Below are positions 2,329 to 53,068 of a DNA stretch of 64,000 nt, one piece after another. The DNA is from Vibrio gallicus (GTDB lineage: Bacteria; Pseudomonadota; Gammaproteobacteria; Enterobacterales; Vibrionaceae). The notes below the pieces were generated by a model. That model saw only the letters and a program-made list of their open reading frames with translations. It was not told where the DNA came from and made no database searches. Numbering within the stretch: the first letter of the stretch is position 1; every line of letters starts with the position of its first letter. The position numbers and the translations under genes were made by a program. Location: contig NZ_AP024871.1 of assembly GCF_024346875.1 (NCBI RefSeq), forward strand, positions 806,001 through 870,000. The letters are read 5' to 3'.

Positions 2329-2841
2329 ATGGGACACGCTCAATCTGATTTTCGACCAGCAAACATTGCCGTTTTAACCGTTTCGGATACTCGCACTGAA
2401 GAAACCGATACCAGTGGCGGATATCTTGCAGAGCAACTGCAACAGTGTGGTCATACTTTGACTGGCAAACAGATCGTTATCGATGACGTATATAAAATTC
2501 GTGCTGCAGTATCACAATGGATTGCTGCTGAGAATGTAGATGCGATTCTAATTACTGGTGGTACTGGTTTCTCGGCACGTGATTTTACACCTGAAGCAGT
2601 ATCAGTACTGTTTGATAAGCAGATTGAAGGCTTTGGTGAGTTGTTCCGTTCAATTTCTTATCAGCAAATCGGTACGTCCACCATTCAATCTCGCGCAGTA
2701 GCGGGTATTGCAAACCGTACAGTAATCTTTGTGATGCCAGGTTCTACTGGAGCATGTCGCACTGCTTGGGATGGAATTCTTAAACAACAGTTAGATTCTA
2801 GCCATAAGCCATGTAACTTTATGCCGCATATCGGAGCATAA
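2329..2841 (+). CDS. moaB: Molybdenum cofactor biosynthesis protein B
   Basis: MoaB/MogA-like protein of 170 residues, the usual length. It shows the TVSDTR motif near the N terminus, the molybdopterin-binding TGGTGFSARDFTPEAV segment around residues 85-100 and VMPGSTGACR near 143-152. It binds molybdopterin; its adenylation role overlaps that of MogA in gammaproteobacteria. It lies 73 bp after moaA and 6 bp before moaC, so it is co-transcribed. Confidence 0.95.
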   Translation: MGHAQSDFRPANIAVLTVSDTRTEETDTSGGYLAEQLQQCGHTLTGKQIVIDDVYKIRAAVSQWIAAENVDAILITGGTGFSARDFTPEAVSVLFDKQIEGFGELFRSISYQQIGTSTIQSRAVAGIANRTVIFVMPGSTGACRTAWDGILKQQLDSSHKPCNFMPHIGA

Positions 2842-2847
2842 TTTAGC

Positions 2848-3327
2848 ATGAGTGAATTGACCCACATTAATCAAAACGGCGAAGCTAATATGGTGGACGT
2901 TTCGGGCAAAGCTGAAACGGTGCGTGCAGCAAGAGCTGAGGCGTATGTTGAGATGGCGCCAGAAACACTGCAACTAATCGTAAGTGGTTCACATCATAAA
3001 GGCGATGTATTTGCCACAGCACGCATTGCGGGTATCCAAGCGGCGAAGAAAACCTGGGATTTAATCCCGCTATGTCATCCATTACTACTATCTAAGGTTG
3101 AGGTGCAGCTTACTGCATTGCCAGAGAGCAATCAGGTACATATTGAGTCTGTATGTAAGCTGGCCGGTAAAACGGGCGTTGAAATGGAGGCCCTAACGGC
3201 GGCATCGGTCGCGGCATTGACCATCTACGATATGTGTAAAGCGGTGCAAAAAGATATGGTAATTAGTCAGGTACGCCTATTAGAGAAAAAGGGCGGAAAA
3301 TCTGGACACTTTGAGGCTAAGTCATGA
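2848..3327 (+). CDS. moaC: Cyclic pyranopterin monophosphate synthase MoaC
   Basis: Converts 3',8-cyclo-GTP to cyclic pyranopterin monophosphate after MoaA. The 159-residue protein carries the conserved [14 protein letters not shown] (residues about 72-79) and GVEMEALTA (about 110-118) active-site segments, and the conserved D and K of the [11 protein letters not shown] helix. Its stop overlaps the moaD start by 4 bp (ATGA), a sign of translational coupling. Confidence 0.96.
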
Positions 3328-3569
3328 TTAAAGTTGTTTTCTTTGCTCAGGTACGAGAGCTAGTTGGTATCGATGAGATTGTTATTGACTCTCAATCGAC
3401 CACAGTTGAAGCGATTCGCCAGCAACTGCTGTTGAAGGGTGGCAAATGGGAACTGGCGTTAGAGTCGGGGAAACTGCTTACGGCAGTTAACCACACCATG
3501 GTTCCTCTTACAGCTGAAGTCAACGCGGGTGATGAGGTTGCATTCTTCCCTCCAGTTACAGGCGGTTAG
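3324..3569 (+). CDS. moaD: Molybdopterin synthase sulfur carrier subunit MoaD
   Basis: Ubiquitin-like sulfur carrier of 81 residues ending in the required GlyGly (PPVTGG), which is adenylated by MoeB and then thiocarboxylated. Together with MoaE it inserts the dithiolene sulfurs into precursor Z. It overlaps moaC by 4 bp and is 2 bp from moaE, matching the fixed stoichiometry of the synthase. Confidence 0.95.
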
Positions 3570-3571
3570 GC

Positions 3572-4024
3572 ATGGATAAGGTATTGGTTCAGTCTCAAGA
3601 TTTTGATCTATCCCAAGAATATTCTTGGTTAAGTGAAGATCAAGGTGTCGGAGCAGTTGTAACCTTTATTGGTAAAGTGAGAGATTTTAATTTAGGGGAC
3701 AATGTTGTTGGCTTGCATCTTCAGCACTACCCAGGAATGACTGAAAAATCTTTGCAGAGCATTATTGAACAAGCACGACAGCGCTGGCCGTTGGATAAAG
3801 TATCAATCATCCATCGAGTAGGAGACCTTGATATTGGCGATCAAATTGTCTTTGTTGGAGTCTCTAGCGCCCACCGAGATGCTGCTTTTGCCAGCTGTGA
3901 TTTCCTTATGGACTACCTTAAAACACAGGCTCCATTTTGGAAAAAAGAGCGCTTAGCCAAGGGAAGTCGCTGGCTTGATTCGAGAGAATCTGATCATCAA
4001 GCAGCTTCAAGATGGCTGAAATAA
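3572..4024 (+). CDS. moaE: Molybdopterin synthase catalytic subunit MoaE
   Basis: Catalytic subunit of 150 residues, the family length. Conserved features are the GAVVTFIGKVRD segment (about 27-38), HYPGMTEK, a VSSAHRDAAF motif near 106-115 and the active-site Lys region PFWKKE near 126-131. Last gene of the moa operon; a factor-independent terminator follows at 4070-4097. Confidence 0.95.
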   Translation: MDKVLVQSQDFDLSQEYSWLSEDQGVGAVVTFIGKVRDFNLGDNVVGLHLQHYPGMTEKSLQSIIEQARQRWPLDKVSIIHRVGDLDIGDQIVFVGVSSAHRDAAFASCDFLMDYLKTQAPFWKKERLAKGSRWLDSRESDHQAASRWLK

Positions 4025-4036
4025 AACTACATTAAG

Positions 4037-4052
4037 CGTGATCTGTATCACG
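4037..4052. promoter_or_regulatory. CRP-like palindrome downstream of moaE
   Basis: CGTGAT-CTGT-ATCACG is a perfect inverted repeat and fits the GTGA-N6-TCAC core of a CRP/FNR-family site. It sits 13 bp after the moaE stop and about 480 bp before oppA. The motif is seen; its use is unknown. Confidence 0.35.
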
Positions 4053-4069
4053 AAAATATGAAAGTAAGA

Positions 4070-4097
4070 AAGCTCCTATATTAGGAGCTTTTTTTTA
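4070..4097 (+). terminator. Terminator of the moa operon
   Basis: Nine-base stem AAGCTCCTA/TAGGAGCTT with a TAT loop, followed by a run of T residues at 4089-4096. Confidence 0.92.
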
Positions 4098-4536
4098 TTC
4101 TATTAGGTTTGCTTTAGCCTTTTTTAGGTAACTAAATATTGCAATTGTAGCGATGGAATCTTCATATCTTTAATTATATGTTATTGAAATTGTTGTATTT
4201 ATGTTGTCGCTCGGGGTTGTGTTTGAGGTGTTAATCACGTTTATTGATTAATTTACACTGTTGAGTTGGCTTGCTGTAAAAAGTGTGGGCTATATCACTG
4301 ACATTTTCATCAACCACCGAACTTTAAGCTGGAATATTGACGTATGCAGGAATTTAACAATTCCAATGTGACATTTTCATGGTAAAAAAAACTAATAATT
4401 GGTAACTTTGTTTCCAATTCCTTATGAGTTTTGGCTTTTTTAGGTGAATATACAGATAAAAAATACCTAGAAGAGGAAGCCGAAATCCTCATTGGGAGTT
4501 TCACGGATGCAACTTTTAAAATTGGAGTTTTTTTGC
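4098..4536 (+). other. Long upstream region of oppA
   Basis: About 440 bp without a credible gene. It must contain the opp promoter and a long leader, as in E. coli where oppA is controlled after transcription by small RNAs. A GGAG at 4524-4527 lies 9 bases before the oppA ATG. I could not pick a promoter or sRNA target with confidence. Confidence 0.4.
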
Positions 4537-6168
4537 ATGTATAAAAATAAGATCACTCAGTCTCTGCTTCTTGGTGCCGGTTTAGCCGTAGCCGCTACTT
4601 CTTTCTCTTCTATCGCAGCCCACGTTCCAGATGGTACTAAACTTGCTAAAGTTCAAGAACTTGTTCGCGGTAATGGTACTGAGGTGGCGTCAATTGACCC
4701 ACATAAAACAGAGGGTGTGCCAGAGTCGCACGTAATCCGCGACATTCTAGAAGGTCTAGTAAATCAAGATGCTGATGGTAATACTGTTCCTGGTGTTGCT
4801 ACTAGCTGGGAAACGACAGACAACAAAACCTTTACTTTCCATCTTAGAAAAGAAGCAACATGGTCTAATGGTGACCCAGTAACAGCACAAGATTTCGTGT
4901 ATAGCTGGCAGCGTGCAGTTGACCCTGCTACAGCATCACCGTATTCATGGTATATCGAAATGACTACCATGACTAACTCTGCTGACATCGTTGCGGGTAA
5001 GAAAGACAAGTCAACTCTTGGCGTTAAAGCAATTGATGACCATACATTAGAAATTCACCTAGACACTCCGTTGCCATATTTTGTAATGATGACTGGCCAC
5101 ACAACTATGAAGCCTGTGCATAAAGCAACGGTTGAAAAGTTTGGTGACCAATGGACTCGTCCTGCAAACTTCGTAGGTAACGGCGCATTTGTTCCAAGTA
5201 ACTGGGTAGTTAATGAGCGTTTAGAGCTTAAGCGCAACGAAAAATACTGGGACAACGAGCACACCGTACTTAATAAAGTGACCTACTTACCGATCGAGAA
5301 TCAGGTATCAGAAATGAACCGCTTCTTATCTGGTGAAATTCAGATCACTAACGAGCTTCCAGTAGAACACTTCCGTCGCTTACAAAAAGAGCACCCAGAA
5401 GCGGTTAACGTGAAAGGTAACTTGTGTTCTTACTACTATGGTTTCAACAACCAGAAAGCACCGTTTAACGATGTTCGCGTTCGTAAAGCACTTTCGTACA
5501 CGATTGACCGTGACGTGATTGCAAAAGCTATCCTTGGCCAAGGTCAAAAGCCTGCATACTTCCTAACGCCTGAAATCACTGCTGGATTCCACCCGGATCT
5601 TCCTGCATATGGAAAAATGACGCAAAAAGAACGTATCGCAGCGGCAAAAGAGCTTCTAGAGGAAGCTGGCTTTAATAAGAGCAATCCACTTGAGTTCACT
5701 TTGCTTTATAACACCTCTGAAAACCACAAGAAGATTGCAACTGCAATCCAATCTATGTGGAGAAAAGACCTAGGTGTTAAAATCCAGCTTGAGAACCAAG
5801 AGTGGAAAACATACCTAGATACGCGTCGCGAAGGTAACTTCGATGTAACTCGTGCGGGTTGGTGTGGTGACTACAATGAAGCGTCAAGCTTCCTATCACT
5901 AATGCAGTCAAACAACAGCTCAAACGATCCTAAGTATCATAGCGACACTTACGATGCATTGATGGATAAAGCAATGGAAGCTACTAGCGACGAAGCTCGT
6001 GAAGACATCTATAACAAAGCTGAACAGCAGCTGGCACAAGATATGCCAATTGCACCTATCTATCAGTACGTAACATCTCGTCTTGTATCACCAACCGTTG
6101 GTGGTTACCCAGCTCACAATGCTGAAGATAAGATGTTCTCTAAAGATATGTACATCATCGCTAAATAA
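4537..6168 (+). CDS. oppA: Periplasmic oligopeptide-binding protein OppA
   Basis: SBP family 5 receptor that delivers peptides to OppBCDF. From ATG 4537 it is 543 residues, equal to E. coli OppA. A Sec signal peptide covers about residues 1-28 (KNK, hydrophobic core, SIAA). The family pattern of a peptide-binding two-lobe protein is continuous, and the two Cys that form the OppA disulfide are present (in LCSYYYGF and AGWCGDYN). An upstream in-frame start at 4492 would precede the signal peptide and is rejected. Confidence 0.96.
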   Translation: MYKNKITQSLLLGAGLAVAATSFSSIAAHVPDGTKLAKVQELVRGNGTEVASIDPHKTEGVPESHVIRDILEGLVNQDADGNTVPGVATSWETTDNKTFTFHLRKEATWSNGDPVTAQDFVYSWQRAVDPATASPYSWYIEMTTMTNSADIVAGKKDKSTLGVKAIDDHTLEIHLDTPLPYFVMMTGHTTMKPVHKATVEKFGDQWTRPANFVGNGAFVPSNWVVNERLELKRNEKYWDNEHTVLNKVTYLPIENQVSEMNRFLSGEIQITNELPVEHFRRLQKEHPEAVNVKGNLCSYYYGFNNQKAPFNDVRVRKALSYTIDRDVIAKAILGQGQKPAYFLTPEITAGFHPDLPAYGKMTQKERIAAAKELLEEAGFNKSNPLEFTLLYNTSENHKKIATAIQSMWRKDLGVKIQLENQEWKTYLDTRREGNFDVTRAGWCGDYNEASSFLSLMQSNNSSNDPKYHSDTYDALMDKAMEATSDEAREDIYNKAEQQLAQDMPIAPIYQYVTSRLVSPTVGGYPAHNAEDKMFSKDMYIIAK

Positions 6169-7227: not shown

Positions 7228-8130
7228 ATGTTAACAAAAAAACAAAACCTCGAAGCGATCGAGAAATTCTCTGAAAACCTTGAGATTGAAGGTCGCTCTT
7301 TGTGGCAAGATGCCCGTATCCGTTTTATGCGAAATAAAGCGGCAATGGTGAGCCTATTTATTCTAACGCTTATTACGCTGTCGGTAATTTTCTTGCCAAT
7401 GTTGTCGCAATACGCCTTTGATGATACCGATTGGTATGCAATGCACGTAGGACCATCCGCAGAGCACCTATTTGGTACTGATAGCCTAGGTCGTGACCTA
7501 TATGTTCGTACCCTAGTTGGTGGACGTATCTCATTGATGGTTGGCGTACTTGGTGCGTTTGTTGCTGTACTGATTGGTACGCTATACGGTGCCGCTTCTG
7601 GTTTCATCGGTGGCCGTACTGACCGTATCATGATGCGTATTCTAGAAATCTTATACGCAGTGCCATTCATGTTCTTGGTTATCGTATTAGTGACCTTCTT
7701 TGGCCGAAATATCGTCCTGATATTTGTGGCTATCGGTGCTATCGCATGGCTAGATATGGCGCGTATTGTACGTGGACAGACTCTAAGCTTACGTAGCAAA
7801 GAGTTCATTGAAGCCGCTCATGTATGTGGCGTTAGCAAGTGGCGTATTATCACCCGCCATATCGTTCCAAATGTTTTGGGTATTGTAGCGGTTTATTCAA
7901 CCCTGCTAGTACCAAGTATGATTCTAACTGAATCGTTCCTGTCTTTCCTTGGTCTGGGTGTTCAAGAGCCAATGACAAGCTGGGGAGCACTACTGCAAGA
8001 AGGGTCACAGACAATGGAGGTTGCAGCATGGCAACTTACATTCCCTGCTTTGTTTATGGTAGTAACCCTATTCTGTTTCAACTACGTGGGCGATGGTCTA
8101 CGTGATGCACTTGATCCAAAAGACAGATAA
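7228..8130 (+). CDS. oppC: Oligopeptide ABC transporter permease OppC
   Basis: Second permease, 300 residues, with the N-terminal cytosolic OppC_N segment, the typical FGTDSLGRDL motif at about residues 88-97, five to six membrane helices and an EAA-type loop (EAAHVCGVSKWRIITRHIVPN). It lies 15 bp after oppB and pairs with it to form the channel. Confidence 0.96.
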   Translation: MLTKKQNLEAIEKFSENLEIEGRSLWQDARIRFMRNKAAMVSLFILTLITLSVIFLPMLSQYAFDDTDWYAMHVGPSAEHLFGTDSLGRDLYVRTLVGGRISLMVGVLGAFVAVLIGTLYGAASGFIGGRTDRIMMRILEILYAVPFMFLVIVLVTFFGRNIVLIFVAIGAIAWLDMARIVRGQTLSLRSKEFIEAAHVCGVSKWRIITRHIVPNVLGIVAVYSTLLVPSMILTESFLSFLGLGVQEPMTSWGALLQEGSQTMEVAAWQLTFPALFMVVTLFCFNYVGDGLRDALDPKDR

Positions 8131-8150
8131 TAATTACAAGGAATTCAGTG

Positions 8151-9119
8151 ATGACTAATCTATTAGACGTTAAAGACCTGCGGGTAGAGTTTACGACCCA
8201 AGATGGCATAGTAACTGCGGTTAATGACCTTAACTTCTCCCTAAAAGCGGGTGAGACCCTAGGTATTGTTGGTGAATCAGGCTCAGGTAAATCTCAAACC
8301 GTATTTGCGATTATGGGCTTGCTAGCGAAAAACGGCATTATCTCAGGCAGTGCTAAATTTGAAGGCAAAGAGATCCTAAACCTGCCGGAGAAAGAGCTAA
8401 ACAAAGTACGTGCTGAGCAGATCGCGATGATCTTCCAAGATCCGATGACTTCATTAAATCCATATATGAAGGTGTCTGATCAGTTGATGGAAGTGCTTAT
8501 GCTACATAAAGGCATGGGTAGAGCAGAGGCGTTTGAAGAATCAGTACGCATGCTGGAAGCCGTTAAAATTCCAGAAGCGCGTCAGCGTATCACCATGTAT
8601 CCGCACGAATTTTCTGGCGGTATGCGTCAGCGCGTTATGATAGCGATGGCACTACTGTGTCGCCCTAAGCTGCTGATTGCTGATGAACCGACAACAGCGC
8701 TAGATGTGACCGTTCAGGCTCAGATTATGGACCTGCTTAACGAACTTAAATCAGAGTTTGATACCTCTATCATCATGATTACCCACGACCTTGGCGTAGT
8801 TGCCGGATCCTGTGAGAAGGTATTGGTAATGTACGCTGGCCGTACCATGGAATATGGCTCTGTAGATGACATCTTCTATTCACCAAGCCATCCATACGCA
8901 GAGGGCTTGCTTAAAGCTATCCCTCGCCTGGATACCGTGGGTGAAGTTTTGCCAACGATACCTGGAAATCCACCGAACCTTCTTCGCTTACCACCTGGTT
9001 GTCCTTACCAAGAGCGCTGTCATCGTGTGACAGACCGCTGTAAGAGTGAATCGCCTATCCTGACTCCTTTTGGAGAGCAGCGTCAGCGAGCATGTTTTTC
9101 TGATCACGAGGCTTGGTAA
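8151..9119 (+). CDS. oppD: Oligopeptide ABC transporter ATPase OppD
   Basis: ABC ATPase of 322 residues: Walker A GESGSGKS (41-48), signature FSGGMRQR near 150, Walker B LLIADEPTTALD near 175, and the oligopeptide-family C-terminal extension with the Cys cluster CPYQERC...C. The ATG at 8151 is 7 bases after AAGGAA; an in-frame GTG at 8148 is too close to it. One base separates its stop from the oppF start. Confidence 0.96.
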   Translation: MTNLLDVKDLRVEFTTQDGIVTAVNDLNFSLKAGETLGIVGESGSGKSQTVFAIMGLLAKNGIISGSAKFEGKEILNLPEKELNKVRAEQIAMIFQDPMTSLNPYMKVSDQLMEVLMLHKGMGRAEAFEESVRMLEAVKIPEARQRITMYPHEFSGGMRQRVMIAMALLCRPKLLIADEPTTALDVTVQAQIMDLLNELKSEFDTSIIMITHDLGVVAGSCEKVLVMYAGRTMEYGSVDDIFYSPSHPYAEGLLKAIPRLDTVGEVLPTIPGNPPNLLRLPPGCPYQERCHRVTDRCKSESPILTPFGEQRQRACFSDHEAW

Positions 9120-9120
9120 A

Positions 9121-10122
9121 ATGAACGCACCTTTGAATACAGACAAAAAATTAATACTGGACGTGAAAGACCTTAAGGTTCACTTTCAGATCACTCCAAA
9201 GTCAGCATGGCCTTGGACTAAGCCGATCCCGCTTAAAGCCGTTGACGGTGTTGATGTTCACCTTTACGAGGGTGAAACATTAGGCGTAGTTGGTGAGTCA
9301 GGTTGTGGTAAATCGACTTTTGCGCGTGCTGTAATTGGTTTAGTTGAAGCGACCGAAGGTCAAGTAGTTTGGTTAGGCCAAGACCTACTTAAAATGAAAG
9401 ATGCTGCGCGCCGTGAAACACGCAAAGACATCCAGATGATCTTTCAAGACCCTCTGGCTTCATTGAACCCTCGAATGACAGTGGGTGATATTATTGCTGA
9501 GCCGCTACAAACATTCTATCCAGGCCTTTCTAAAGACCAGGTTAAGGAGCGCGTAAAGGCAATGATGGATAAAGTAGGTCTATTACCTAACGTTATCAAC
9601 CGTTATCCACACGAGTTTTCCGGTGGTCAATGTCAACGTATCGGTATTGCGCGTGCGCTTATCCTTGAACCAAAAATGATTATCTGTGATGAACCTGTTT
9701 CGGCATTGGATGTGTCTATTCAAGCTCAGGTTGTAAACCTTCTTAAAGAGCTACAAACAGAACTTGGATTATCGCTAGTGTTCATTGCACATGACCTTTC
9801 AGTGGTAAAACATATCTCAGATCGCGTATTGGTTATGTACCTTGGAAACGCCGTTGAACTAGGCGAATCTGATGCACTGTTTAAAGACCCTAAGCACCCA
9901 TACACGCGCGCTTTGATGTCAGCAGTGCCTATCCCTGATCCAAAGCTTGAGCGTCAAAAGAAAATTCAGATGCTAGAAGGGGACCTACCTTCCCCAATGA
10001 ACCCACCATCAGGTTGTGTGTTCCGTACTCGTTGTCCTATCGCAACTGAGGAATGTGCCAAGCACAAACCAACGTTAGAAGGCGATGACGTGCATGCAGT
10101 ATCATGCTTGCATGTAGATTAA
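9121..10122 (+). CDS. oppF: Oligopeptide ABC transporter ATPase OppF
   Basis: Second ABC ATPase, 333 residues, with Walker A GESGCGKS near 60-67, signature FSGGQCQR, Walker B IICDEPVSALD and the C-terminal oligo-family Cys cluster CVFRTRC...C. The frame is open upstream inside oppD, but ATG 9121 right after the oppD TAA matches E. coli OppF. Last gene of the operon, followed by a terminator. Confidence 0.95.
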   Translation: MNAPLNTDKKLILDVKDLKVHFQITPKSAWPWTKPIPLKAVDGVDVHLYEGETLGVVGESGCGKSTFARAVIGLVEATEGQVVWLGQDLLKMKDAARRETRKDIQMIFQDPLASLNPRMTVGDIIAEPLQTFYPGLSKDQVKERVKAMMDKVGLLPNVINRYPHEFSGGQCQRIGIARALILEPKMIICDEPVSALDVSIQAQVVNLLKELQTELGLSLVFIAHDLSVVKHISDRVLVMYLGNAVELGESDALFKDPKHPYTRALMSAVPIPDPKLERQKKIQMLEGDLPSPMNPPSGCVFRTRCPIATEECAKHKPTLEGDDVHAVSCLHVD

Positions 10123-27169: not shown

Positions 27170-27265
27170 GGGTGTCCATTATTTTTTCTTTTGAACACTT
27201 CGTCATCTCGGCAATCTTTTAGACCGAGGTCTGTTTGAGCACGATCTTAGTCGCAGCATCGAACT
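27170..27265. repeat. Dispersed REP-like repeat, copy 1
   Basis: Begins with GGGTGTCCATTATT (27170-27183). A 75-bp block at 27190-27265 differs from 48248-48322 at about ten positions. Inside it, CGTCATCTCGG...TTTTAGACCGAGGT (27201-27231) is a diverged palindrome A of the two large arrays. Confidence 0.75.
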
Positions 27266-27347
27266 TATTTATGCCCCATTGCGTGACAGCTTATATCTGA
27301 ATCAACCTAATGCTGTACAAATAAGCGACACCGATATACACTATCAT

Positions 27348-43295: not shown

Positions 43296-44534
43296 TTAAA
43301 GAAACAATCGTGCTCGGATACCAAACACAACTGCGCTATCTTTGTTTGAGAAGGCGGGATCTTTGATGATTTGCACATCAGGTGTGATTTGAAAATGCTC
43401 ACCAAATTGCATGTTGTAATACAGTTCTGCTGTCCATTGCTCATCTGAATGGCTGATAGGTTGTAATATTTGGTGATTAACTTCAGCCCAGTTGACCGCA
43501 AATCCTAAGTTATTTTTGGGTGCACCAAGCCCAAAATAACCAAAGCCTGCACTTACGGATTTGTCGTAAAGGGCGACTTGACCTTCTGATATTCCCCCTC
43601 GAATAAACGGCATAATTTGTGGAGTGATAAATGTACTCCATGAGAAATTAATACCTTGGCCTCCGTCGGTGTTGGCGGTATCAGGGTAGGCGAGGTTATG
43701 ACGAGTATCGTCGCCAAAATGCCATAGTGTTATGTGGAAATTGTCAGTAAAAATTTGATCTTGGGAGGCCGTCCAGCCCAGTTCTAGAGTTGTGAAATAC
43801 GACGCATCACTACCGAACGCAGTATCAAAGCCGTCGAATATGTCATCTGATTTGCCGTTGGCATCAGCAATACCTGCAATGACATAAAAGTTGTCGTTAA
43901 GCATGTGACCTGCAGACAAGGCCAATACGCCGTCATCGGGCAGTCCCATAGAGCCAGCCCCAGTTGAGAACGCTAGGTTACTAAAGCCAGACCAAGGACT
44001 GGCAAGCGCATAAGTATCAACGTAATCCGTTACGTCTTGCCAGCCTGCGATGATTGAGGTTTTTCCGCCATTAAGTTTTTGTTTCCAATGCAGGTTAGTA
44101 ACACGCGCCCCTTGGTCACTAAATGCAGAGCCGATCATGCCAACGTAGCCGATTTGGTCATCACCAATAAAGCCAAATCCTTTTGGTGCGGTATCAGAAT
44201 AAGCGTGGCGGTGTTCAACCTTCCATACAATGCCACCCGTATTACCTGAATCTCGACCAATTAGATCCCAAGCGCCATAGAATCGAACGACACCCGAAGA
44301 GGCATCAACACTGTTGCCTGCTACGCCATCTTTAGAAGCTAAGCTTAAAGCGTTGTAGTCTAGGCCAAAAGTCAGCCCCTCTTCAGCGAGGGATTCTCGC
44401 CAGCTTTTCTGTGGGATCTTTTGCTCTGAAATGGTGTTGCCTACACTATCAGGGCCTTCAAAATTGGCAGCAAATACCATAGATGAAAAACAGGTTACAG
44501 TGATAGAAAGGGTAAGGCGTGAGAGTTTGTTCAT
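43296..44534 (-). CDS. OprB-family carbohydrate-selective porin
   Basis: 412 residues: signal peptide (about 1-22, MVFAA), then the OprB pattern (WRESLAEEGLTFGLDYNALSL, GRDSGNTGGIVWKVEHRH) and a terminal RARLFL with Leu after Phe. Such porins pass sugars or small organics through the outer membrane. It is third in a minus-strand run with the amidohydrolase and DUF3299 genes. ATG 44534 is the start; the frame extends to 44612 without homology. Confidence 0.85.
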   Translation of the reverse strand: MNKLSRLTLSITVTCFSSMVFAANFEGPDSVGNTISEQKIPQKSWRESLAEEGLTFGLDYNALSLASKDGVAGNSVDASSGVVRFYGAWDLIGRDSGNTGGIVWKVEHRHAYSDTAPKGFGFIGDDQIGYVGMIGSAFSDQGARVTNLHWKQKLNGGKTSIIAGWQDVTDYVDTYALASPWSGFSNLAFSTGAGSMGLPDDGVLALSAGHMLNDNFYVIAGIADANGKSDDIFDGFDTAFGSDASYFTTLELGWTASQDQIFTDNFHITLWHFGDDTRHNLAYPDTANTDGGQGINFSWSTFITPQIMPFIRGGISEGQVALYDKSVSAGFGYFGLGAPKNNLGFAVNWAEVNHQILQPISHSDEQWTAELYYNMQFGEHFQITPDVQIIKDPAFSNKDSAVVFGIRARLFL

Positions 44535-44666
44535 TAACGTGAGTTCCTCAAGGAGTTGCCTAGGGCTAAAGAAGTAGTTGCTGAGATAAATTGTAGGCAC
44601 AACGTCTAACAAAAATTGTCATTTGGCGACATCAGATGATATTGCTTATTGGCTGGGATCTCTTTG

Positions 44667-45335
44667 TTATTCAGGACTATACAGTTCAATAGAGTCGGCT
44701 GTCATCGCATAAACTGATTCCACGTTTGCAGACCCATCCGAGTAATCCACATCTTGTGTTGACTGTTGTCCGGTAAGTTCGCCTTGTACCCAAACGGGTG
44801 TTGTTAGGCTTATTAACTCAATACCCTCTGGATACTCAATTAACACTAATTGGTTTGCAGGCGGAGGTGGGGTATGAATACATGCACCAGCAGTAGGAAC
44901 GAGGAAAAACTTAGTGACCTTGGTTCCTTTCATCTCGATAGGAGTAATAAATCCTGGGATTTTACGCTTTGCATTTAATACGTCTTTGTTTGGCAAAGAC
45001 GCCAGAGCTTGGCGCTGCTGCATGATTTTATTGCGGACGCTAAATAAGTGTTCGACATCAATTCCTTGAGCTTGCAGCCCTTGTCTTATTTTCTCAACCT
45101 CTTGCTTTGCCGCTTCACTGACTTGAAAATCTTGCTGTTTTTGAGCCTCTTGGAAGCGAGCGATAGTTGCCATATCGAACATTTGATTGTCATCTAATGA
45201 CTTAAATGGGTCTTCGACGGTTTCCATTTTAGGAGTAAGTTGGTCCCAATAAGTTGTTTGTGCTTCAGCGGCAAATAGTGAGACAGAAGCAACAACAGAC
45301 AGCAAACCTAATAGCGTTGATTTAGAGAAAAACAT
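44667..45335 (-). CDS. DUF3299 family exported protein
   Basis: 222 residues with a signal peptide (about 1-25). The domain is in the C-terminal half: KIPGFITPIEM, then TKFFLVPTAGACIHTPPPPANQLVLIE, the DUF3299 hallmark with one Cys and the HTPPPP run. Function unknown; often beside ABC or lipoprotein genes. 74 bp after the amidohydrolase on the same strand. Confidence 0.87.
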   Translation of the reverse strand: MFFSKSTLLGLLSVVASVSLFAAEAQTTYWDQLTPKMETVEDPFKSLDDNQMFDMATIARFQEAQKQQDFQVSEAAKQEVEKIRQGLQAQGIDVEHLFSVRNKIMQQRQALASLPNKDVLNAKRKIPGFITPIEMKGTKVTKFFLVPTAGACIHTPPPPANQLVLIEYPEGIELISLTTPVWVQGELTGQQSTQDVDYSDGSANVESVYAMTADSIELYSPE

Positions 45336-45409
45336 AGTGGGTAAACCTCAATGAAAGAATTAAATAGGCAAGGGTTTGTAGCCCTTGCCTAATAGGGTGT
45401 TGCGGTCGA

Positions 45410-46783
45410 TTACATTTCGTTGCGGTAAATTTGGCCGTCTTTCATGACTAGCTTGATCGTGTCGATTTTTTTGTATTCTGGGTCGGCATCGAACCATTTA
45501 TTGGTTCCACCAATGACACCTAAGTCATCTAACGGATTACCTTCTACCAGAATGATATCGGCAATCGCATCTTGCTCTATAACGCCTAGCTTGCCTTTCG
45601 CTGGGTTGCGAGGGCCAGACAGTGCCAACATTTCGCCAGCATTAGATGTCATCTGTTTTAACACCTCAAAGTTGCTACCAAATTGTTCCCCACGCCACCA
45701 GATTTCGTAGCGACGAGCACGCTCAGCATCGGAGTTTACGCCTACGTAGTCAGAGGCAAATACGACTTTGACATCGTGCTTTAACAGGTCTTTGCCAAAC
45801 GTGCCATATTCCTCCACAAGTGCGTTGATAAGTGGCAGCTTGTCAGCTGGCATTAGGGGGTTTTTAGCTAAATCAGGGGAAATGCCCCACATTTGAGGAA
45901 CCACAAATCCACCTTCTTTGGCAATTCTCTGCATAGTTTCTTCGCTAATGAAGAAAGAGTGCTCAAATGTTTTTACGCCGCAATCTAGTAGTCGATTAAC
46001 AGAGCGATCATTAAAGGTATGCGCTGCGACATAAGTGCCCCAATCGGCAGCCGCCTCAACGATGGCACAGGTTTCATCTTTTGAGTATTGGGTCGTATCA
46101 ATCGGGTCAAATCGAGATGAACCACCACCGCCGGCCATTATTTTAATTTGAGTGGCGCCGTTGCGTAGGTTCAAGCGGGTTGCTTTTAATACTTCTGGCA
46201 CGCCATCTGCAACATTACCAATACCCATACGTTCAAAGTTGGACACGTCACCTTTGATACCCGCACTAAAGCCTGGGTCCGCACGGTCTCTAAAGTCACC
46301 ATGGCCAGAGGTTTGGGAAATAAATCCGCCGGATGGGTAGATACGTGGACCGTCAATATTGCCAGCATCTATTTCACGCTTTAGACCAAAAGCCGGGCCG
46401 CCCATATCACGAACAGAGGTAAAGCCATCGTCAAGGAAACGTTGTGCAACGGTGACGGCGTTAATTGAAATATCGGTAAGGTCTTTATTTTTCTCAACCT
46501 GGTCAAAGTTGTAGTTGATCATAATATGTGCATGACCGTCGATAAGCCCAGGCATTAAGGTTTTGCCTTGACCGTCGATAACGGTTGCATCATTGGCTTC
46601 AATTGGGCTAGCAGAAATGCTTTTGATCTTGTTATCTTCGACCAGTACGTGATGATCTTGATACAGCTTGTCTTCTGTACCATTGAATATATCTACATTG
46701 GTGAACAGTGTGGAAGCAGCTGAAACGGAAAAAGCAGCAGAACATGATAGTGCTATTGCCGTCAGCTTGAGAGTATTCTTCAT
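45410..46783 (-). CDS. Exported metal-dependent amidohydrolase
   Basis: 457 residues, with a signal peptide (about 1-22, AFSVSA). Imidazolonepropionase/prolidase-type fold: DGHAHI metal site near 82-87, the KIMAGGG region with the bridging Lys near 216-222, AAHTFND and FEHSFF His sites, and the ASDYVG Asp near 345. Periplasmic members cleave dipeptides or cyclic amides. It heads the minus-strand cluster with DUF3299 and the porin, downstream of an AraC gene. Confidence 0.88.
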   Translation of the reverse strand: MKNTLKLTAIALSCSAAFSVSAASTLFTNVDIFNGTEDKLYQDHHVLVEDNKIKSISASPIEANDATVIDGQGKTLMPGLIDGHAHIMINYNFDQVEKNKDLTDISINAVTVAQRFLDDGFTSVRDMGGPAFGLKREIDAGNIDGPRIYPSGGFISQTSGHGDFRDRADPGFSAGIKGDVSNFERMGIGNVADGVPEVLKATRLNLRNGATQIKIMAGGGGSSRFDPIDTTQYSKDETCAIVEAAADWGTYVAAHTFNDRSVNRLLDCGVKTFEHSFFISEETMQRIAKEGGFVVPQMWGISPDLAKNPLMPADKLPLINALVEEYGTFGKDLLKHDVKVVFASDYVGVNSDAERARRYEIWWRGEQFGSNFEVLKQMTSNAGEMLALSGPRNPAKGKLGVIEQDAIADIILVEGNPLDDLGVIGGTNKWFDADPEYKKIDTIKLVMKDGQIYRNEM

Positions 46784-46996
46784 ATTGATTTACCTTATAA
46801 ACTAAGCAAATTATCCCTATCCAAATCTCTACTCAAAAAATCTGAGTGCATTTCCTATGCGTTAGTTATTGCATGAAGCAAACTTAACAACTTGGATGCA
46901 TTCAATAACTTGGGTGTTACTTTATGGTGAATCGAGGTTAATTAATTGCCATTTGATGACATTAAAGGAGGGAGTTGTTAGATAGTGCTTGTCAGT

Positions 46997-48007
46997 TTAT
47001 TGGTGTGATTTTCTATATTGAGAGGGTGTGCAACCGTAAATGCGCTTGAATGAACGTGTGAAATGAGCCGCATCAGAGTAGCCATAGCGGTTAGCTATTT
47101 GAGTTATATTTTCGTTACTGCCAGATAAGTGTTTAGATATTTGTTCAAAAACTAAGGCTTCAATCAGTTGTTTGTAGACAATATTTTCAGATTCCAGCCG
47201 CCTTTGAAGGGTTCTTACATTCAACCTCAGGATTTCAGCGGCAATCTTGATAGGCAGTTTGCCCATAGAAAGGTAAGGAGTGATTGCCAATGTGAATTGC
47301 TGTTTAAAAGACGATGGGGGGATAGAGCAAGATTGATGCTGAGCGACCTTGTTGATATTTTTAGGTAATTGAATAGGTGACAATAATAGCGATTCTGGTA
47401 TTTCGATGGCAGTGACCGGGCGCTCGATAAAAAACTGAGCGTGTTGCAGCGAAGGCAGTTGTGAAAATTCATCAATGTTAGGGTGTTGAATACCAATTCG
47501 CTGTGGAAGCCACTTTTGATGAGTTAATGCCCTTAATAGCTCTGCCATGCAGATAACGGAGAACATCTCTGCGTATTTAAACCATCCTTCATCCAAACCA
47601 CTTTTCTCACGAACCAGCCACCAACTGCCTCCTGCTTGCTCAAGATAGACATTTTCAGCACTGGATTCCTTTTTTAAAAGGGTACTAAATTTCTGTAACG
47701 CTGCTTTAAGAGAGCTTTGCTCTGTTAGCGAGGAAATAAGGCGAGGTACATAGGTTTCTTTACAGGTTCTTAAAAACAGCCAACCCAATTGTTTTTGAGT
47801 GGTGTTATCAGCCAGTACTTCTAGAAAGTTTTTCAGGCATGACTCAGGCAAATATTCATACTGAGCGTCAGTATGAATATCATTAGGGATAGTAGCCGCG
47901 CGCAGTAAGGCGTAAGTTTTACTATCAACCTCTTTAAACATGGATGCAAAAAACTCGACACTCTGTCGCGATACAAGTGGGATGTTATTTTCTTTTTGCG
48001 AAGCCAT
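46997..48007 (-). CDS. AraC-family regulator with arabinose-binding-like N domain
   Basis: 336 residues: an N-terminal domain of the OruR/ArgR-like AraC group (about 20-210) and a C-terminal HTH pair (IKIAAEILRLNVRTLQRRLESE and ITQIANRYGYSDAAHFTRSFKRIYGCTPSQYR). Same strand as, and upstream of, the amidohydrolase cluster (213 bp gap); probable regulator of it. Confidence 0.87.
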   Translation of the reverse strand: MASQKENNIPLVSRQSVEFFASMFKEVDSKTYALLRAATIPNDIHTDAQYEYLPESCLKNFLEVLADNTTQKQLGWLFLRTCKETYVPRLISSLTEQSSLKAALQKFSTLLKKESSAENVYLEQAGGSWWLVREKSGLDEGWFKYAEMFSVICMAELLRALTHQKWLPQRIGIQHPNIDEFSQLPSLQHAQFFIERPVTAIEIPESLLLSPIQLPKNINKVAQHQSCSIPPSSFKQQFTLAITPYLSMGKLPIKIAAEILRLNVRTLQRRLESENIVYKQLIEALVFEQISKHLSGSNENITQIANRYGYSDAAHFTRSFKRIYGCTPSQYRKSHQ

Positions 48008-48114
48008 ATCTATATCAACTTTTGATTAGTTGCTTGAGTGTTAATTATATCAAGCTGTACGTCAAATTAAGAAGGGTCGAACAAGTGTGCTTTTTAGCTA
48101 TGTACTCCATCACC

Positions 48115-48325
48115 AAATACTGGACACCCATAATTTTCGAACATGTTTCTGCCTGTATTGTGGCACTCAAATACAGGACACCCACAAGAGCATTTACAGA
48201 TTCCCACCTGCATGGGAAACCAGGTTGGGCTTAGTCATCCTATGGTCTTTGAACACTCCGCCATCTCGGTAATCTTTTAAGCCGAGATCGGTTTGAGCGC
48301 GATCTTAGTCGCAGTATCTAACACA
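48115..48325. repeat. GGACACCCATAA motifs and dispersed REP-like repeat, copy 2
   Basis: AATACTGGACACCCATAATT (48116-48135), then AATACAGGACACCCACAA (48169-48186), then a diverged palindrome B (ACAGATTCCCACC-TGCATGGGAA, 48196-48218) and a diverged palindrome A (CCATCTCGG...TTTTAAGCCGAGATCGG, 48261-48291). The block 48248-48322 matches 27190-27265. The order B then A is that of the arrays. It lies in the 443-bp gap before the FAH gene. Confidence 0.8.
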
Positions 48326-48450
48326 TTTCTGCTTAGAAGCTTGATGAGCTGAATTGTTTAGGTTGTACCATTTGTCTGCCCATCCCGTATCCATACATCT
48401 GTGACTATTCTTAATTAACTAGTCACTATCAGTTGAGAGTAGAGATAAAG

Positions 48451-49257
48451 ATGAAATGGATAATTCTAATCAGCACCCTAATTGCTTCAGCGTCAGCATG
48501 GAGTGAGGTTGAACAGTTTGTAAGATACCAACAAGGCGAAGAGATTGGCTACGGAAGGCTAGTTAGCAATAAAGTCTATCCCATATCCGGTGATGTTTTT
48601 GATCAGTTTTCAGTAGAGAGTAATAACATTGCACTGGATAAGGTTGAGCTGCTGCTACCAGTCATACCAGAAAAAGTCTTTGCTGTAGGGATGAATTTCG
48701 CTAGCCATATGTCCTCTCCGTCTGACCGTCCACCTCCTCTATTTTTGAAACTTCCGTCTTCACTGATTTTGTCTGGTCAAACTATACAAGTGCCTAGTGA
48801 TGCAAAAAATGTCCACTTTGAAGGGGAGTTGGTGGTTGTTATAGGTAAAGAGGCCCGCAATATATCTGAAGATCAAGTAAAGGGCGTTGTATTTGGAGTG
48901 ACCGTTGGTAACGATTTAACTGAACGAAGCTGGCAAGGGCAAGATTTGCAATGGATGAGGGCTAAAGCGACTGATGGGTTTGGCCCCATTGCAGCGACGA
49001 TAACGCGAGGCGTTGATTATGAAGCCTCACTGTTGACTACTCGACTTAATGGTAAAGTTGTCCAGCAAGAGAACACACGACATATGATTCATTCGGTGGC
49101 GAAGGTGGTCAGTTACCTGAGTCGTTATTTTACCCTCAAACCTGGCGACTTGATTTTTATGGGAACGCCGGGCAGGACCAAGGCATTATCAGACGGAGAT
49201 ATTGTGTCTGTAACCATTGATGGGGTGGGGAGCGTGGAAAATACCGTCCAATTCTAA
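48451..49257 (+). CDS. Fumarylacetoacetate hydrolase-fold protein with signal peptide
   Basis: 268 residues from ATG 48451. The FAH fold is clear: VFAVGMNFASHM, FLKLPSSLI, VHFEGELVVVIGK (metal-binding Glu pair), GVTVGNDLTERSWQ and LKPGDLIFMGTPGR. Residues 1-18 (KWIILISTLIASASA) look like a Sec signal peptide, which is unusual because this fold is normally cytosolic. It would hydrolyse or decarboxylate a diketo acid in the periplasm if exported. Confidence 0.83.
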   Translation: MKWIILISTLIASASAWSEVEQFVRYQQGEEIGYGRLVSNKVYPISGDVFDQFSVESNNIALDKVELLLPVIPEKVFAVGMNFASHMSSPSDRPPPLFLKLPSSLILSGQTIQVPSDAKNVHFEGELVVVIGKEARNISEDQVKGVVFGVTVGNDLTERSWQGQDLQWMRAKATDGFGPIAATITRGVDYEASLLTTRLNGKVVQQENTRHMIHSVAKVVSYLSRYFTLKPGDLIFMGTPGRTKALSDGDIVSVTIDGVGSVENTVQF

Positions 49258-49413
49258 GTTGCTCGGCTGTTCGATACTAGAGATTCATTGTGGTATATGG
49301 AGTACAGCATAGTCCATCCTATGCTAGACTCCCGCTACTTGCGAGATAAGTGTTGTTATCTATCAGCGTAAGGACATACAAATGGCCACTCTATTTTTTA
49401 CAAAGGTATATCA

Positions 49414-49674
49414 ATGAGCAAATTGAGTTCAGCAGAACGCAAAGCACGCGACCACGAACGTTTTTCACAACGTGTAAATGAACGCAGAGAGAAGGGTGAA
49501 GACATCGTTGCGTATGCGCTTTCAAACAAGAAGGCGCTGAAGTTTCTGACGAAGTCAGAAAAAAAAGCACTGAACGAACGTAAAGCAGCAGTTAAAAAAG
49601 AGCTTGAGCAGAAAGAGCAAGAAGAGCTTAAAAAAATCGAAGAATCTTTTTCAGTTGATCAACGCAAAGATTAA
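49414..49674 (+). CDS. Small charged helical protein
   Basis: 86 residues, more than one third Lys, Arg, Glu or Asp. Residues 46-75 form a strong coiled-coil-like helix (EKKALNERKAAVKKELEQKE). No membrane segment or known domain. Start ATG 49414. Likely real from composition; function unknown. Confidence 0.65.
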   Translation: MSKLSSAERKARDHERFSQRVNERREKGEDIVAYALSNKKALKFLTKSEKKALNERKAAVKKELEQKEQEELKKIEESFSVDQRKD

Positions 49675-49740
49675 AAAGAACAGAAATTACCGGACACCCA
49701 TAAATATTGACGTCTCTCGACTCTACAGCTAGCTTTAATT

Positions 49741-49755
49741 GATGCACAGTGCATC
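49741..49755 (+). promoter_or_regulatory. Hairpin just ahead of the RAYT ribosome site
   Basis: GATGCAC-A-GTGCATC is a perfect inverted repeat ending 2 bases before GGAGG (49758-49762). It could limit translation of the transposase. Confidence 0.5.
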
Positions 49756-49770
49756 TTGGAGGTAGTTGTT

Positions 49771-50769
49771 ATGACCCAATCTCGACAGTCTCAAGTTTCT
49801 CTTTCTGATACTCCTTATTATCATTGTATCTCGCGTTGTGTTCGCAGAGCCTATCTGTGTGGCGACGATAAATATACAGGGCAATCATTTGAGCACCGCC
49901 GAGCGTGGGTGGTTGAGCGGATGCATTATTTGTCGACGGTATTTAGTATGGATATCTGCGCCTATGCGGTGATGTCAAATCATTACCACATTGTGCTGCA
50001 TGTCGACGAGCAATTAAATCAACAGCTTAGTGATGAAGATGTCTGCTGGAGGTGGGGACAGTTATACTCACTTCCCGTACTAGTTCAGCGCTGGCTAAAA
50101 AAGCAAACCTGCGCTGAAGTTGAAAGTAAAGCGGCTCTTAGTATCATCAATGATTGGCGAGAGCGGCTTATTGATATTTCATGGTTCATGCGCAGCCTAA
50201 ATGAGTTTATTGCACGTAAAGCCAACGCAGAAGATGACTGCTCCGGAAGGTTTTGGGAGGGGCGGTTTAAGTCGCAAGCGTTACTCGATGAAGAAGCCTT
50301 ATTAACATGCATGGCTTATGTCGATTTGAATCCCATACGAGCAGGCATCAACGACAGTATCGAAGCGTCTGAATACACCTCCGTTTACGAGCGAGTTCAC
50401 GGCGTGTCACATCAAGATGAACAGCAAAGCGAGCCCCCTTGTAACAAGAAGGCATTATTTGGTTTTGTTGGCGATACCAGTGAGTCTGAGCAGCGAGGCA
50501 TTCCGTATTCATTACTCGATTATATTGAGCTAGTGGATTGGAGTGGCCGTGTTATTCGAAATGACAAACCCGGTGCAATTGTCGCTTCACACCCTAAACT
50601 ACTGCACTCACTCGGCTTAGATACAGAGACTTGGATGAGCTTAGCCAGTAATTTTGGCAAAGATTATCAAGGAGCGGTCGGTACACTGGATGAGTTGGCG
50701 TTATTTGCAGAGCACACAGGTAGGCGATGGATAGCCAAAAAGAACCAACTGCGACGATGTTTGCACTAA
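49771..50769 (+). CDS. REP-associated tyrosine transposase (RAYT, Y1/HUH family)
   Basis: 332 residues. The N-terminal TPYYHCISRCVRRAYLC segment, the HUH pair HYH (His71, His73) in MSNHYHIVLHVD and the MAYVDLNPIRAGI helix define the IS200-like Y1 domain. The extra C-terminal half (from about 215) is seen in vibrio relatives. GGAGG 8 bases before ATG 49771. Such enzymes bind and cut REP hairpins. It lies between GGACACCCATAA motifs of opposite orientation, with no terminal IS ends seen. Confidence 0.9.
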   Translation: MTQSRQSQVSLSDTPYYHCISRCVRRAYLCGDDKYTGQSFEHRRAWVVERMHYLSTVFSMDICAYAVMSNHYHIVLHVDEQLNQQLSDEDVCWRWGQLYSLPVLVQRWLKKQTCAEVESKAALSIINDWRERLIDISWFMRSLNEFIARKANAEDDCSGRFWEGRFKSQALLDEEALLTCMAYVDLNPIRAGINDSIEASEYTSVYERVHGVSHQDEQQSEPPCNKKALFGFVGDTSESEQRGIPYSLLDYIELVDWSGRVIRNDKPGAIVASHPKLLHSLGLDTETWMSLASNFGKDYQGAVGTLDELALFAEHTGRRWIAKKNQLRRCLH

Positions 50770-50946
50770 CCACTCACTTTATTTACTCATATTTACCACA
50801 CATCTTTATTAATTAGCCTAGCTAACGACACAGCACGCCTTGAATTTCCTAATTTACGTATTTTAATGTCAATTTCACGGCATTAATCAACATTCATCCG
50901 ATTTAAACACATTTTTTAAGCTTTAACATGTAGCGGTTGAGTATTG

Positions 50947-51022
50947 GTTTGAAAACTATAATTAATGGATGTCCAGTATCTGGTTGTTTGAAAACTATAA
51001 TTAATGGATGTCCAGTATCTGG
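50947..51022. repeat. Perfect 37-bp direct repeat after the RAYT gene
   Basis: Two identical copies (50947-50983, 50986-51022) of GTTTGAAAACTATAATTAAT followed by GGATGTCCAGTATCTGG, separated by TT. The reverse complement reads CCAGATACTGGACATCCAT, the same motif as at 48117 in inverse orientation. The rest of the 389-bp gap before rhlE shows no gene. Confidence 0.92.
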
Positions 51023-51158
51023 GATGTCGTGTTTTTGAGCTTATTGCGATGAATTGGTAAAAAGCCTGCCGTTCCGATACAGTTTGTTTTACAATCTGTG
51101 ACCGTATTTTTGGTTATGCTTTATGTGGTCGTAGCCGCTTAATTTTAGGAACACAACA

Positions 51159-52451
51159 ATGTCATTTTCATCTCAGAATTTTTCTCCAGAAATTGTGAAA
51201 GCACTGTCCGAGTGTGGCTACGAAAAACTAACGCCTGTTCAGCAAAAAGCGATCCCTCTCGCTCGTAAAGGGCACGATATCTTAGCGAATGCTCAAACAG
51301 GGACCGGCAAAACTGCCGCGTTCGCTCTGCCAATTATTCAGCAACTATTAGACAACAGCAAGGTGACTAAGCAGTTTCAAACGCGAGCACTGGTTCTTGC
51401 ACCAACTCGTGAATTGGCTGCACAGATTGCGCAAAGCATTGAAGATTATATTAAGTACACATCATTGAGTGTTGCTGCTATTTATGGTGGCGTGAAAATG
51501 TCATCTCAGGTTCAAAAGCTAAAGAACGGTGTCGACATTTTAGTGGCAACACCAGGTCGCTTGATTGAGCATCTGGATGAGAAAAATATTTCCCTACAGA
51601 ACCTTGAGTTCTTGGTTTTCGATGAAGCCGACCGTATGTTAGACATGGGCTTTATTTCATCAATTGAAACCATTATGTCTGGTGTTTTAACGAAGCCACA
51701 GACTATGCTGTTCTCGGCGACGTTCTCTGCGCAAATGAACAAACTAGCGGCTGAAATGTTGAATCAACCGAAAAGAGTATCTGTAACTCAAGAAAACGTG
51801 ACGGCAGACACTATCGCGCATGTTGTCTACCCAGTAGATCAAGAAAGAAAGTGTGAAATGTTATCTGAACTTATTGGTCGTAAGAACTGGCAACAGGTAT
51901 TGGTCTTTGTGAACTACAAAGAAACGGCCAACATGTTATTGAAAGAACTCAAACTGGACGGCATTAAAGCGGTACTATGTCACGGCGATAAAGCACAAAG
52001 TGCCCGTCGTAGAGCGCTTGACGAGTTTAAAGAAGGCAAGGCGCGTGTGATGATTGCAACCGATGTGGCTGCTCGCGGCTTAGATATTAAAGGCCTTCCA
52101 CACGTAGTGAACTTTGATATGCCATTTTTGGCAGAAGATTATGTTCACCGTATTGGTCGAACAGGTCGAGCTGGCCAAAAAGGTCATGCAGTGTCTTTTG
52201 TCAGCCGTGAAGAGGAACTGACGTTGCAACAAGTCGAGTCGTTGATTGGTCATACGATTAGACGTGTAGAACAAGCAGGGTACGAGCCAAAAAACCGTGA
52301 TGCGCTATTGCAGAAAATGCACAGCAAACCAGCGTTCAAAGACCGTAAAACTCGCAAGAATAACCCTTCTGATGCCAGTCAGGGTTCTGCTGAGAGATCC
52401 GCTCGACTACGTAATATCGTGAGAAATAGAGCTGCAGCCACTAAGAAGTAA
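51159..52451 (+). CDS. rhlE: DEAD-box RNA helicase, RhlE type
   Basis: 430 residues: Q motif (TPVQQKAIPLA), Walker A AQTGTGKT (45-52), PTRELAAQI, TPGRL, DEAD box VFDEADRML, SAT, and in domain two ARGLDIKGLPHVVNFD and HRIGRTGRAG. The short basic tail fits RhlE. It unwinds RNA in ribosome assembly or decay. A TAGGA precedes ATG 51159. Confidence 0.93.
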   Translation: MSFSSQNFSPEIVKALSECGYEKLTPVQQKAIPLARKGHDILANAQTGTGKTAAFALPIIQQLLDNSKVTKQFQTRALVLAPTRELAAQIAQSIEDYIKYTSLSVAAIYGGVKMSSQVQKLKNGVDILVATPGRLIEHLDEKNISLQNLEFLVFDEADRMLDMGFISSIETIMSGVLTKPQTMLFSATFSAQMNKLAAEMLNQPKRVSVTQENVTADTIAHVVYPVDQERKCEMLSELIGRKNWQQVLVFVNYKETANMLLKELKLDGIKAVLCHGDKAQSARRRALDEFKEGKARVMIATDVAARGLDIKGLPHVVNFDMPFLAEDYVHRIGRTGRAGQKGHAVSFVSREEELTLQQVESLIGHTIRRVEQAGYEPKNRDALLQKMHSKPAFKDRKTRKNNPSDASQGSAERSARLRNIVRNRAAATKK

Positions 52452-52469
52452 GCGAGCCAGCGTACACTA

Positions 52470-52505
52470 AACGCCGATGATGCAAATCAATCGGCGTTTT
52501 TTTTA
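52470..52505 (+). terminator. Terminator of rhlE
   Basis: AACGCCGAT/ATCGGCGTT stem with an 11-base loop, then a run of T residues. Confidence 0.93.
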
Positions 52506-53068
52506 CCCCGAGAGATATATTTCTACTCCCGCTTTATTTCCAACCTTCAAGCTTGTCACAACTTGGGTGTTAAGTTAATTGTGGTAGGTAACCGATACTC
52601 ATAAGAATTGCGAGTAATAGACGTCGTTGACTGCACGTAAGATAATTTGGATATCACCCCATCAAGCCATGGTTTGGCAGGTTATATAACTGTCAAACAA
52701 TCAGGCTGATATAGGGGGAAGTTGATGAGAGGGCGCTTTATTAGATATAAAGCATCCAGATTGGTGCATACCAAACAACAGTGGTAAGAACAACAACCAG
52801 TGTCATTCGTGGTCTATCTAGTAGGATATCTTGATTCATAATCTGTCTCTCTTTCATCTAAAAAAGTAGAGCATCCATTGCGTTAAATTCCCTTCCGGTT
52901 ATGGCGTTTCACCTTCTAACCTATGGGTTCATTTAACCAAAATAGCCGTTATGAATAAATTCAGTTACGTTTATATCACACATAAGCCACGCTTATTAAT
53001 GAAGGTGTAAAAGAATACTGGACACACATAATGTCGCTAGCGTACTTCTTGATATCTTAGTTAGTACG
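52506..53068. other. Intergenic region between rhlE and catB
   Basis: Holds the 32-residue frame at 52741-52839 and one AATACTGGACACACATAATG motif (53014-53033). Otherwise I see nothing; no integron attC fold was recognised beside catB. Confidence 0.45.
52741..52839 (-). CDS. Putative 32-residue single-span membrane protein
   Basis: ATG 52839 to TAA 52741 encodes MNQDILLDRPRM, then a hydrophobic stretch TLVVVLTTVVWYAPIWMLYI to the end. AAAGAGAGAC precedes the ATG as a ribosome site. Charged soluble head, one membrane helix of about 20 residues, no loop after it: the usual form of a regulatory small membrane protein. A GCTTTAT/ATAAAGC hairpin overlaps its 3' end. Not a shadow of any gene. Translation is unproven. 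Confidence 0.5.
   Translation of the reverse strand: MNQDILLDRPRMTLVVVLTTVVWYAPIWMLYI

Follow-up and report, generated by a model that had tools for sequence, protein, structure and literature searches.

A predicted autonomous RAYT-type element of Vibrio gallicus with inverted end tags and tandem partial end copies

HuH enzymes leave a 3′-OH that is able to prime synthesis or to attack, and in a passage of PMC8266576 this property is named as a possible route for the spread of repetitive extragenic palindromes (REPs) and bacterial interspersed mosaic elements (BIMEs). For subclass 2.3 of the TnpAY1 enzymes, the passages concerned of PMC6006769 give a median spacing of 110 residues between the HuH motif and the tyrosine, a mean identity within genomes of 74.8% and no REP-like sequence by either automatic or manual search. 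TIRYTs, whose RAYT-like genes lie between terminal inverted repeats (TIRs) and not REPs in units termed TIRtrons (PMC3733652, in the part describing them), were assigned to subclass 2.1 in 20 of 26 cases (PMC6006769, same passages). REPINs (REP doublets forming hairpins) occur in clusters which, as described in part of PMC3116915, are tandem repeats including flanking sequence. Here we describe a RAYT gene and its ends in a 64-kb stretch of the Vibrio gallicus genome (assembly GCF_024346875.1, contig NZ_AP024871.1, positions 806,001 to 870,000), referred to as the window, and compare the unit with its copies in this genome and with relatives in other species.

The 332-residue protein encoded in the window has a predicted fold nearest to 4er8 and the motifs NHYH, FWEG and YVDLNP. 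An earlier reading made from the letters of the window, called here the sequence-only reading, had called the gene a RAYT gene; its product is a RAYT-type HuH enzyme, with a predicted fold and motifs of the TnpAREP kind. NCBIfam NF047646 (REP_Tyr_transpos) was matched with an E value of 6.8e-11, but with 42.2 bits against a cut-off of 80, and Pfam Y1_Tnp with 18.4 bits, under its cut-off of 23. Asn70, His71, His73 and Tyr183 are unchanged across 34 sequences, the distance from His73 to Tyr183 being 110. Judged by motifs, length and spacing, the enzyme matches the description of TnpAY1 subclass 2.3, which in the passages available (PMC6006769) shares NHYH, WE, YVDLNP, about 325 residues, the HuH-Tyr spacing of 110, several copies per genome and a prevalence in Alteromonadales and Chromatiales. 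Unlike that description, the elements reported here have end tags, gene-less relatives and copies that are 97-100% identical.

Nine full copies of the RAYT gene are present in this genome (97-100% protein identity), in addition to one partial copy (95%) and three distant ones (45-48%). By eye, the sequence common to the copies extends from a left tag to a right tag and is divergent outside. In this genome, left ends have the approximate sequence RAAATTNNY-GGACACCCAT, and right ends carry the tag inverted, with outer bases that are less strict. Gene-less elements with inverted, AAATACTGGACACCCAT-like ends were also found, namely a 109-bp element and a 157-bp family with four copies, which was detected in one of six genomes searched, this one. 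The exact motif TGGACAYCCA occurs 40 times in the genome, 20 times per strand, and the reversed pattern 3 and 6 times. By position, 19 of these 40 sites lie in RAYT elements, ten in small gene-less elements and three at other repeats or ends (C1 733922, 735845 and 740472); the 38 sites examined further include two in the window (27169 and 48121) and four which, by eye, resemble chance occurrences inside genes. Comparison of these copies indicates that the RAYT unit is a multi-copy autonomous mobile element with inverted tagged ends.

At the window copy (Table 1), GGACACCCA stands left of the RAYT gene and two inverted copies stand right of it. GGACAYCCA occurs seven times in the window against 0.61 expected, a number reached by none of 100 shuffles, and the motif copies reported in the sequence-only reading are thus genuine: TACTGGACACCCATAAT, claimed at 48117, is read at 48118-48134, CCGGACACCCATAAAT begins at 49690, and the two inverted right copies lie within a perfect 37-nt direct repeat with a spacing of 39. 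That reading did not list AATACAGGACACCCAC at 48170-48185, which is another left copy. The motif in opposite orientation is the likely recognition element of the RAYT. The left border of the unit, previously set at 48117, has to be moved to 49690. At the other eight sites in the genome the innermost left motif is located 77-79 nt 5′ of the start codon, equivalent to 49692 in the window; homology with genome G021 runs to 49673, while homology resumes at 51025 in G022 and at 51029 in G015, each of these edges being one-sided. Because of the motif position at the eight sites and the homology edges of the relatives, the motif pair 48122/48176 falls outside the RAYT element. It resembles the ends of the 157-bp family and of the 109-bp element and, on this comparison, is a separate end.

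Table 1. Positions of the RAYT element and its ends in the window
Feature	Position	Strand	Basis or remark
IS-like (insertion sequence-like) RAYT element, outer point to outer point, ~1.34 kb	49683..51022	+	nine-site comparison; homology edges of relatives
RAYT gene, 332 residues, predicted HuH/Y1 transposase	49771..50769	+	NHYH (70-73), YVDLNP (Tyr183)
Left end GAAATTACCGGACACCCATAAA with tag R-GACACCCA-T	49683..49704	+	
Right end, outer unit, inverted tag, TGGATGTCC on + strand	50986..51022	-	perfect 37-nt repeat
Right end, inner unit, pairing with outer unit as period-39 stutter	50947..50983	-	
Detached end pair CAAATACTGGACACCCATAA and CAAATACAGGACACCCACAA, 54 nt apart	48114..48187	+	resembles ends of small non-autonomous elements

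The tag was followed beyond this genome. A scan of named genomes yielded at least 590 confirmed relatives, and among the 80 kept GGACA[CT]CC lies left of the gene in 32, right of it in 20 and on both sides in 18; many other relatives have, by eye, AGACACCCA or GCCACCCA in the same position. This genome, named genomes, plasmid records and other genomes were pooled into 124 entries at 116 loci, eight entries being second genes or outer stutter copies (tandem partial copies of an end, described below) within one locus; the duplicate loci L182 and L214 were removed before tags and stutter were counted. The tag was sought from −130 to −35 on the left of the gene and from +930 to +1450 on its right. 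Of the 124 entries, 104 had a left tag (83 exact) and 92 had a right tag (49 exact), with 87 having both. The consensus is A/T-rich from −8 to −4 with R at −1, followed by GACACCCA-T; its perfect columns are partly a matter of design, because the searches required the tag. By arithmetic with uniform bases, an exact 8-mer is expected in about 0.15% of 95-nt windows. The tag R-GACACCCA-T is present at both ends of such elements in many gammaproteobacteria, and it also ends small gene-less elements.

Across 223 genomes of the genus, 69 had a RAYT hit (E up to 1e-40) and 154 had none. Exact GGACACCCAT was counted on average 5.7 times (median 4) in the former against 2.8 times (median 3, maximum 8) in the latter, with means of 5.3 and 4.5, respectively, for the reversed-pattern control. 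The Mann-Whitney p value of 3e-7, or 4e-6 minus the top four genomes (RAYT mean then 4.1), is too small because species were counted as independent. An equal density of the motif in genomes without the RAYT, which the sequence-only reading had named as evidence against its claim, was not observed, but the excess derives mainly from four genomes with 47, 36, 27 and 17 copies, all having at least eight RAYT hits. The density result is limited by the other 65 RAYT genomes, which contain at most ten copies each and, taken together, show no excess over the reversed-pattern control; they may be explained by a low copy number or by a tag that differs in their lineage.

Many ends are accompanied by tandem partial copies of themselves, which we term stutter. 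Their starts lie close to a single outer point, P, which in most cases is 9-14 nt outside GACACCC, and their inner stops vary. As stutter we scored at least 12 exact nucleotides repeated within 400 nt outside an end, and because of this distance an 887-bp unit is absent from the counts. Stutter was present at 37 of 101 testable left ends and at 30 of 91 right ends; random points within these loci showed it at 52 of 2080 (2.5%) and 33 of 1840 (1.8%), respectively. The proportions were 33/93 (left) and 30/89 (right) with one entry per locus, and 28/84 and 28/80 without this genome. The interval −16 to −7 contained the outer boundary of 51 of 75 repeats at left ends and of 43 of 62 at right ends, as compared with 34 of 244 at random points, and the inner boundaries were widely scattered. 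In a set of 40 near-exact units (outer boundary −17 to −7, at most 12 filler nucleotides), 26 lie exactly end to end or have an overlap of at most 3 nt, and lengths in the whole set range from 11 to 243. Overall, units measure 11 to 887 bp; the long ones are 187 and 333 bp in genome G039 and 887 bp in this genome (99.9% identity over 883 nt), and the unit on the right of the window copy measures 39 bp. Loci L203 and L204 had been considered nested insertions of one copy in another; this was rejected, as they are long stutter units.

The outer bases vary between sites and largely agree among the units of one site. Because they are site-specific yet common to these units, the units were probably made where they stand. 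In P. shioyasakiensis, two strains carry the element behind the same gene, and one of them has a 121-bp unit pair with 2/121 differences; divergence between the strains is 15% over the element and right flank and 9% over the left one. The same picture could result from an older pair homogenised at a later time or from loss in the second strain.

We consider it fairly probable that a nick by the enzyme at P, extension by a polymerase and rejoining explain the tandem partial copies of an autonomous element with a transposase like those of TnpAY1 subclass 2.3. What the genomes contain directly are nine insertion sites with common ends, gene-less elements with identical ends and tandem partial copies that begin close to P and end at any point inside. 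For this element we infer all enzymatic steps as follows. The enzyme would bind the tag R-GACACCCA-T and nick at P on the strand running from outside to inside; in this genome the nick would lie some 10 nt 5′ of GACACCC, elsewhere mostly 9-14 nt. Tyr183 would hold the 5′ end and the 3′-OH would remain in the flank, from where a host polymerase would extend it along the element over a variable length, displacing the held strand. Rejoining of the new 3′ end to the held 5′ end would then leave one tandem partial copy per cycle. Since the two ends are inverted relative to each other, each would be expected to acquire copies with fixed start and free stop, and transposition of the whole element would use identical chemistry with both ends cut.

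Several observations weigh against this proposal. At the threshold used, stutter is missing from 64 of the 101 left ends and from 61 of the 91 right ones, and in this genome alone it was seen at five of nine left and two of nine right ends. Filler of 1-8 nt in 14 of the 40 near-exact units is not predicted by the simple model, and P spans −7 to −17 between lineages, the full range permitted by the selection of units. No fixed dinucleotide was evident by eye at P in these 40 units, in contrast to TnpAREP enzymes, which cut at CT or CA sites; distance would therefore have to determine where cleavage occurs. For five of the nine sites in this genome, the joined flanks gave no base-exact empty site in 227 genomes, a silence which means little because two candidates per genome were scored. 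Two loci with elements, compared in four relatives, gave matches that were diverged or not adjacent, and the flanks of one own-genome site fall on different contigs in G062. A Pseudoalteromonas site lacks the element in CF6-2, with a junction that is not base-exact.

The same data bear on other origins of the partial copies. They might arise at insertion, if synthesis primed from target 3′ ends aborts and restarts, leaving aborted copies behind. The like polarity at both ends, the variable lengths and the fillers in 14 of 40 units would suit such a process, but the outer nucleotides differ between sites while recurring within the units of one site, and the 121-bp unit of locus L170 seems younger than its insertion, so that we regard this origin as unlikely. 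We judge slightly less likely still that the units were made without transposase, by slippage in replication or by unequal exchange at AT-rich ends. Some units that are short and AT-rich, for example the 12-bp array of L090, do look slippage-like; against this, left and right ends alike have outer starts clustered near −10 together with a free inner stop, units reach 887 bp, near-exact units overlap by a few nucleotides at most, and random points in the same loci give 1.8-2.5%.

The extent and nature of the element could also be read differently. A composite element from 48114 to 51022, with an FAA-hydrolase gene and a gene for an 86-residue protein as cargo, would agree with the likeness of the outer left and right ends (25 nt, 84% complementary) and with the FAA gene not being found beside the 86-residue gene in the G021 locus fetched. 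It appears improbable, given that none of six other own-genome matches, among the matches listed, reaches past the RAYT element and that the pair at 48114 resembles the ends of small non-autonomous elements. Least probable of all, and disfavoured, is a classical REPtron, a stationary domesticated RAYT spreading REP hairpins, which in such units flank the gene and bear 5′ GT[AG]G. REPtrons and REPINs (TnpAREP, e.g. subclasses 2.2 and 2.5) share with our element the HuH fold, the TnpAREP motifs and motif copies in inverted orientation, and to this extent the REPtron-like unit of the sequence-only reading stands; it is not a strict REPtron, since there is no fold excess and the gene itself is mobile, with nine near-identical full copies. 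Ten end stretches from eight loci, four of them in this genome, showed no folding beyond that of shuffles (z −1.57 to 0.76), in a test that did not extend systematically to more distant hairpins or to GTAG tags. The absence of an Rfam match in 44000-53000 is weak evidence against REP hairpins.

Among the remaining systems, IS200/IS605 members such as IS608 and ISDra2 resemble the element proposed here in their HuH/Y1 fold and in having a mobile, multi-copy gene. They differ by subterminal hairpins in place of inverted end tags, and the present enzyme has a long extra C-terminal part; stuttering ends are not known as a feature of IS608. Excision as a single-stranded circle is a further trait of that family, and the end stretches folded here gave no hairpins better than chance. 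TIRtrons have the same layout of a RAYT-like gene between TIRs, as seen here in the 87 entries tagged at both ends. The TIRYT motif GGGGWSAS (PMC3733652, passages on the repeats) is partly like NGGGACAC, whereas the consensus here is R-GACACCCA-T; some published TIRs are without GGGGWSAS. Neither Vibrio nor GGACAC occurs in the main text of that paper, and its passages on these repeats describe no stuttering ends. A literature search that reached little subscription content yielded no recognised description of tag or stutter for RAYT ends. TIRs on TIRYT elements are already known, and tag plus stutter for RAYT ends is unmatched in the literature found.

Further features were observed near the element and elsewhere. 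A palindrome-bearing repeat (85% over 85 nt; window 27190-27274 and 48248-48332) adjoins motif copies, and its distant copies cluster on C2 at 119112-120029, with spacings of ~190-230 bp, and at 170667-171695; it is possibly attC-like, as in integrons. Locus L059 contains a 1.8-kb repeat, 96% identical, at 2839-4619 and 7466-9263 (G000:C1 735838-737618 and 740465-742262), which begins at GAAATGCTGGACACCCAT and has a 345-residue gene, membrane-permease-like by eye; at its opposite end no exact inverted tag was found. The FAA-hydrolase family gene (window 48451-49257) has a signal-peptide-like start, MKWIILISTLIASASA, which is unusual for this family. The gene at 49414-49674, directly before the RAYT element, encodes the 86-residue protein, which is charged and has no Pfam or PADLOC match; its surrounding DNA has an identity of 88% in G021 and of 72-75% in several genomes of the genus. 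The insertions at L045, L047, L048, L051, L052, L057 and L170 lie, by eye, close to terminator-like hairpins, and the element might favour single-stranded or hairpin DNA as its target.

Subclass 2.3, published without a DNA partner, now has named ends, a tag and a predicted cut position. The stutter, a footprint with fixed start and free stop, may be a trace of the way in which DNA is cut and rejoined by the enzyme. Should the enzyme be its source, this would be a HuH transposase that uses the 3′-OH to prime synthesis and then to rejoin, and a mechanism for tandem REP and REPIN arrays would be on offer. That a HuH transposase acts in place as such a nick-prime-rejoin machine, lengthening DNA ends by tandem partial copies from a set nick point with stutter as its footprint, and that related RAYTs make tandem BIME and REPIN arrays likewise, is a tentative extension to which we give slightly less than even weight. 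For tandem arrays, a second, unnamed mechanism is inferred in a passage of the REPIN paper (PMC3116915).
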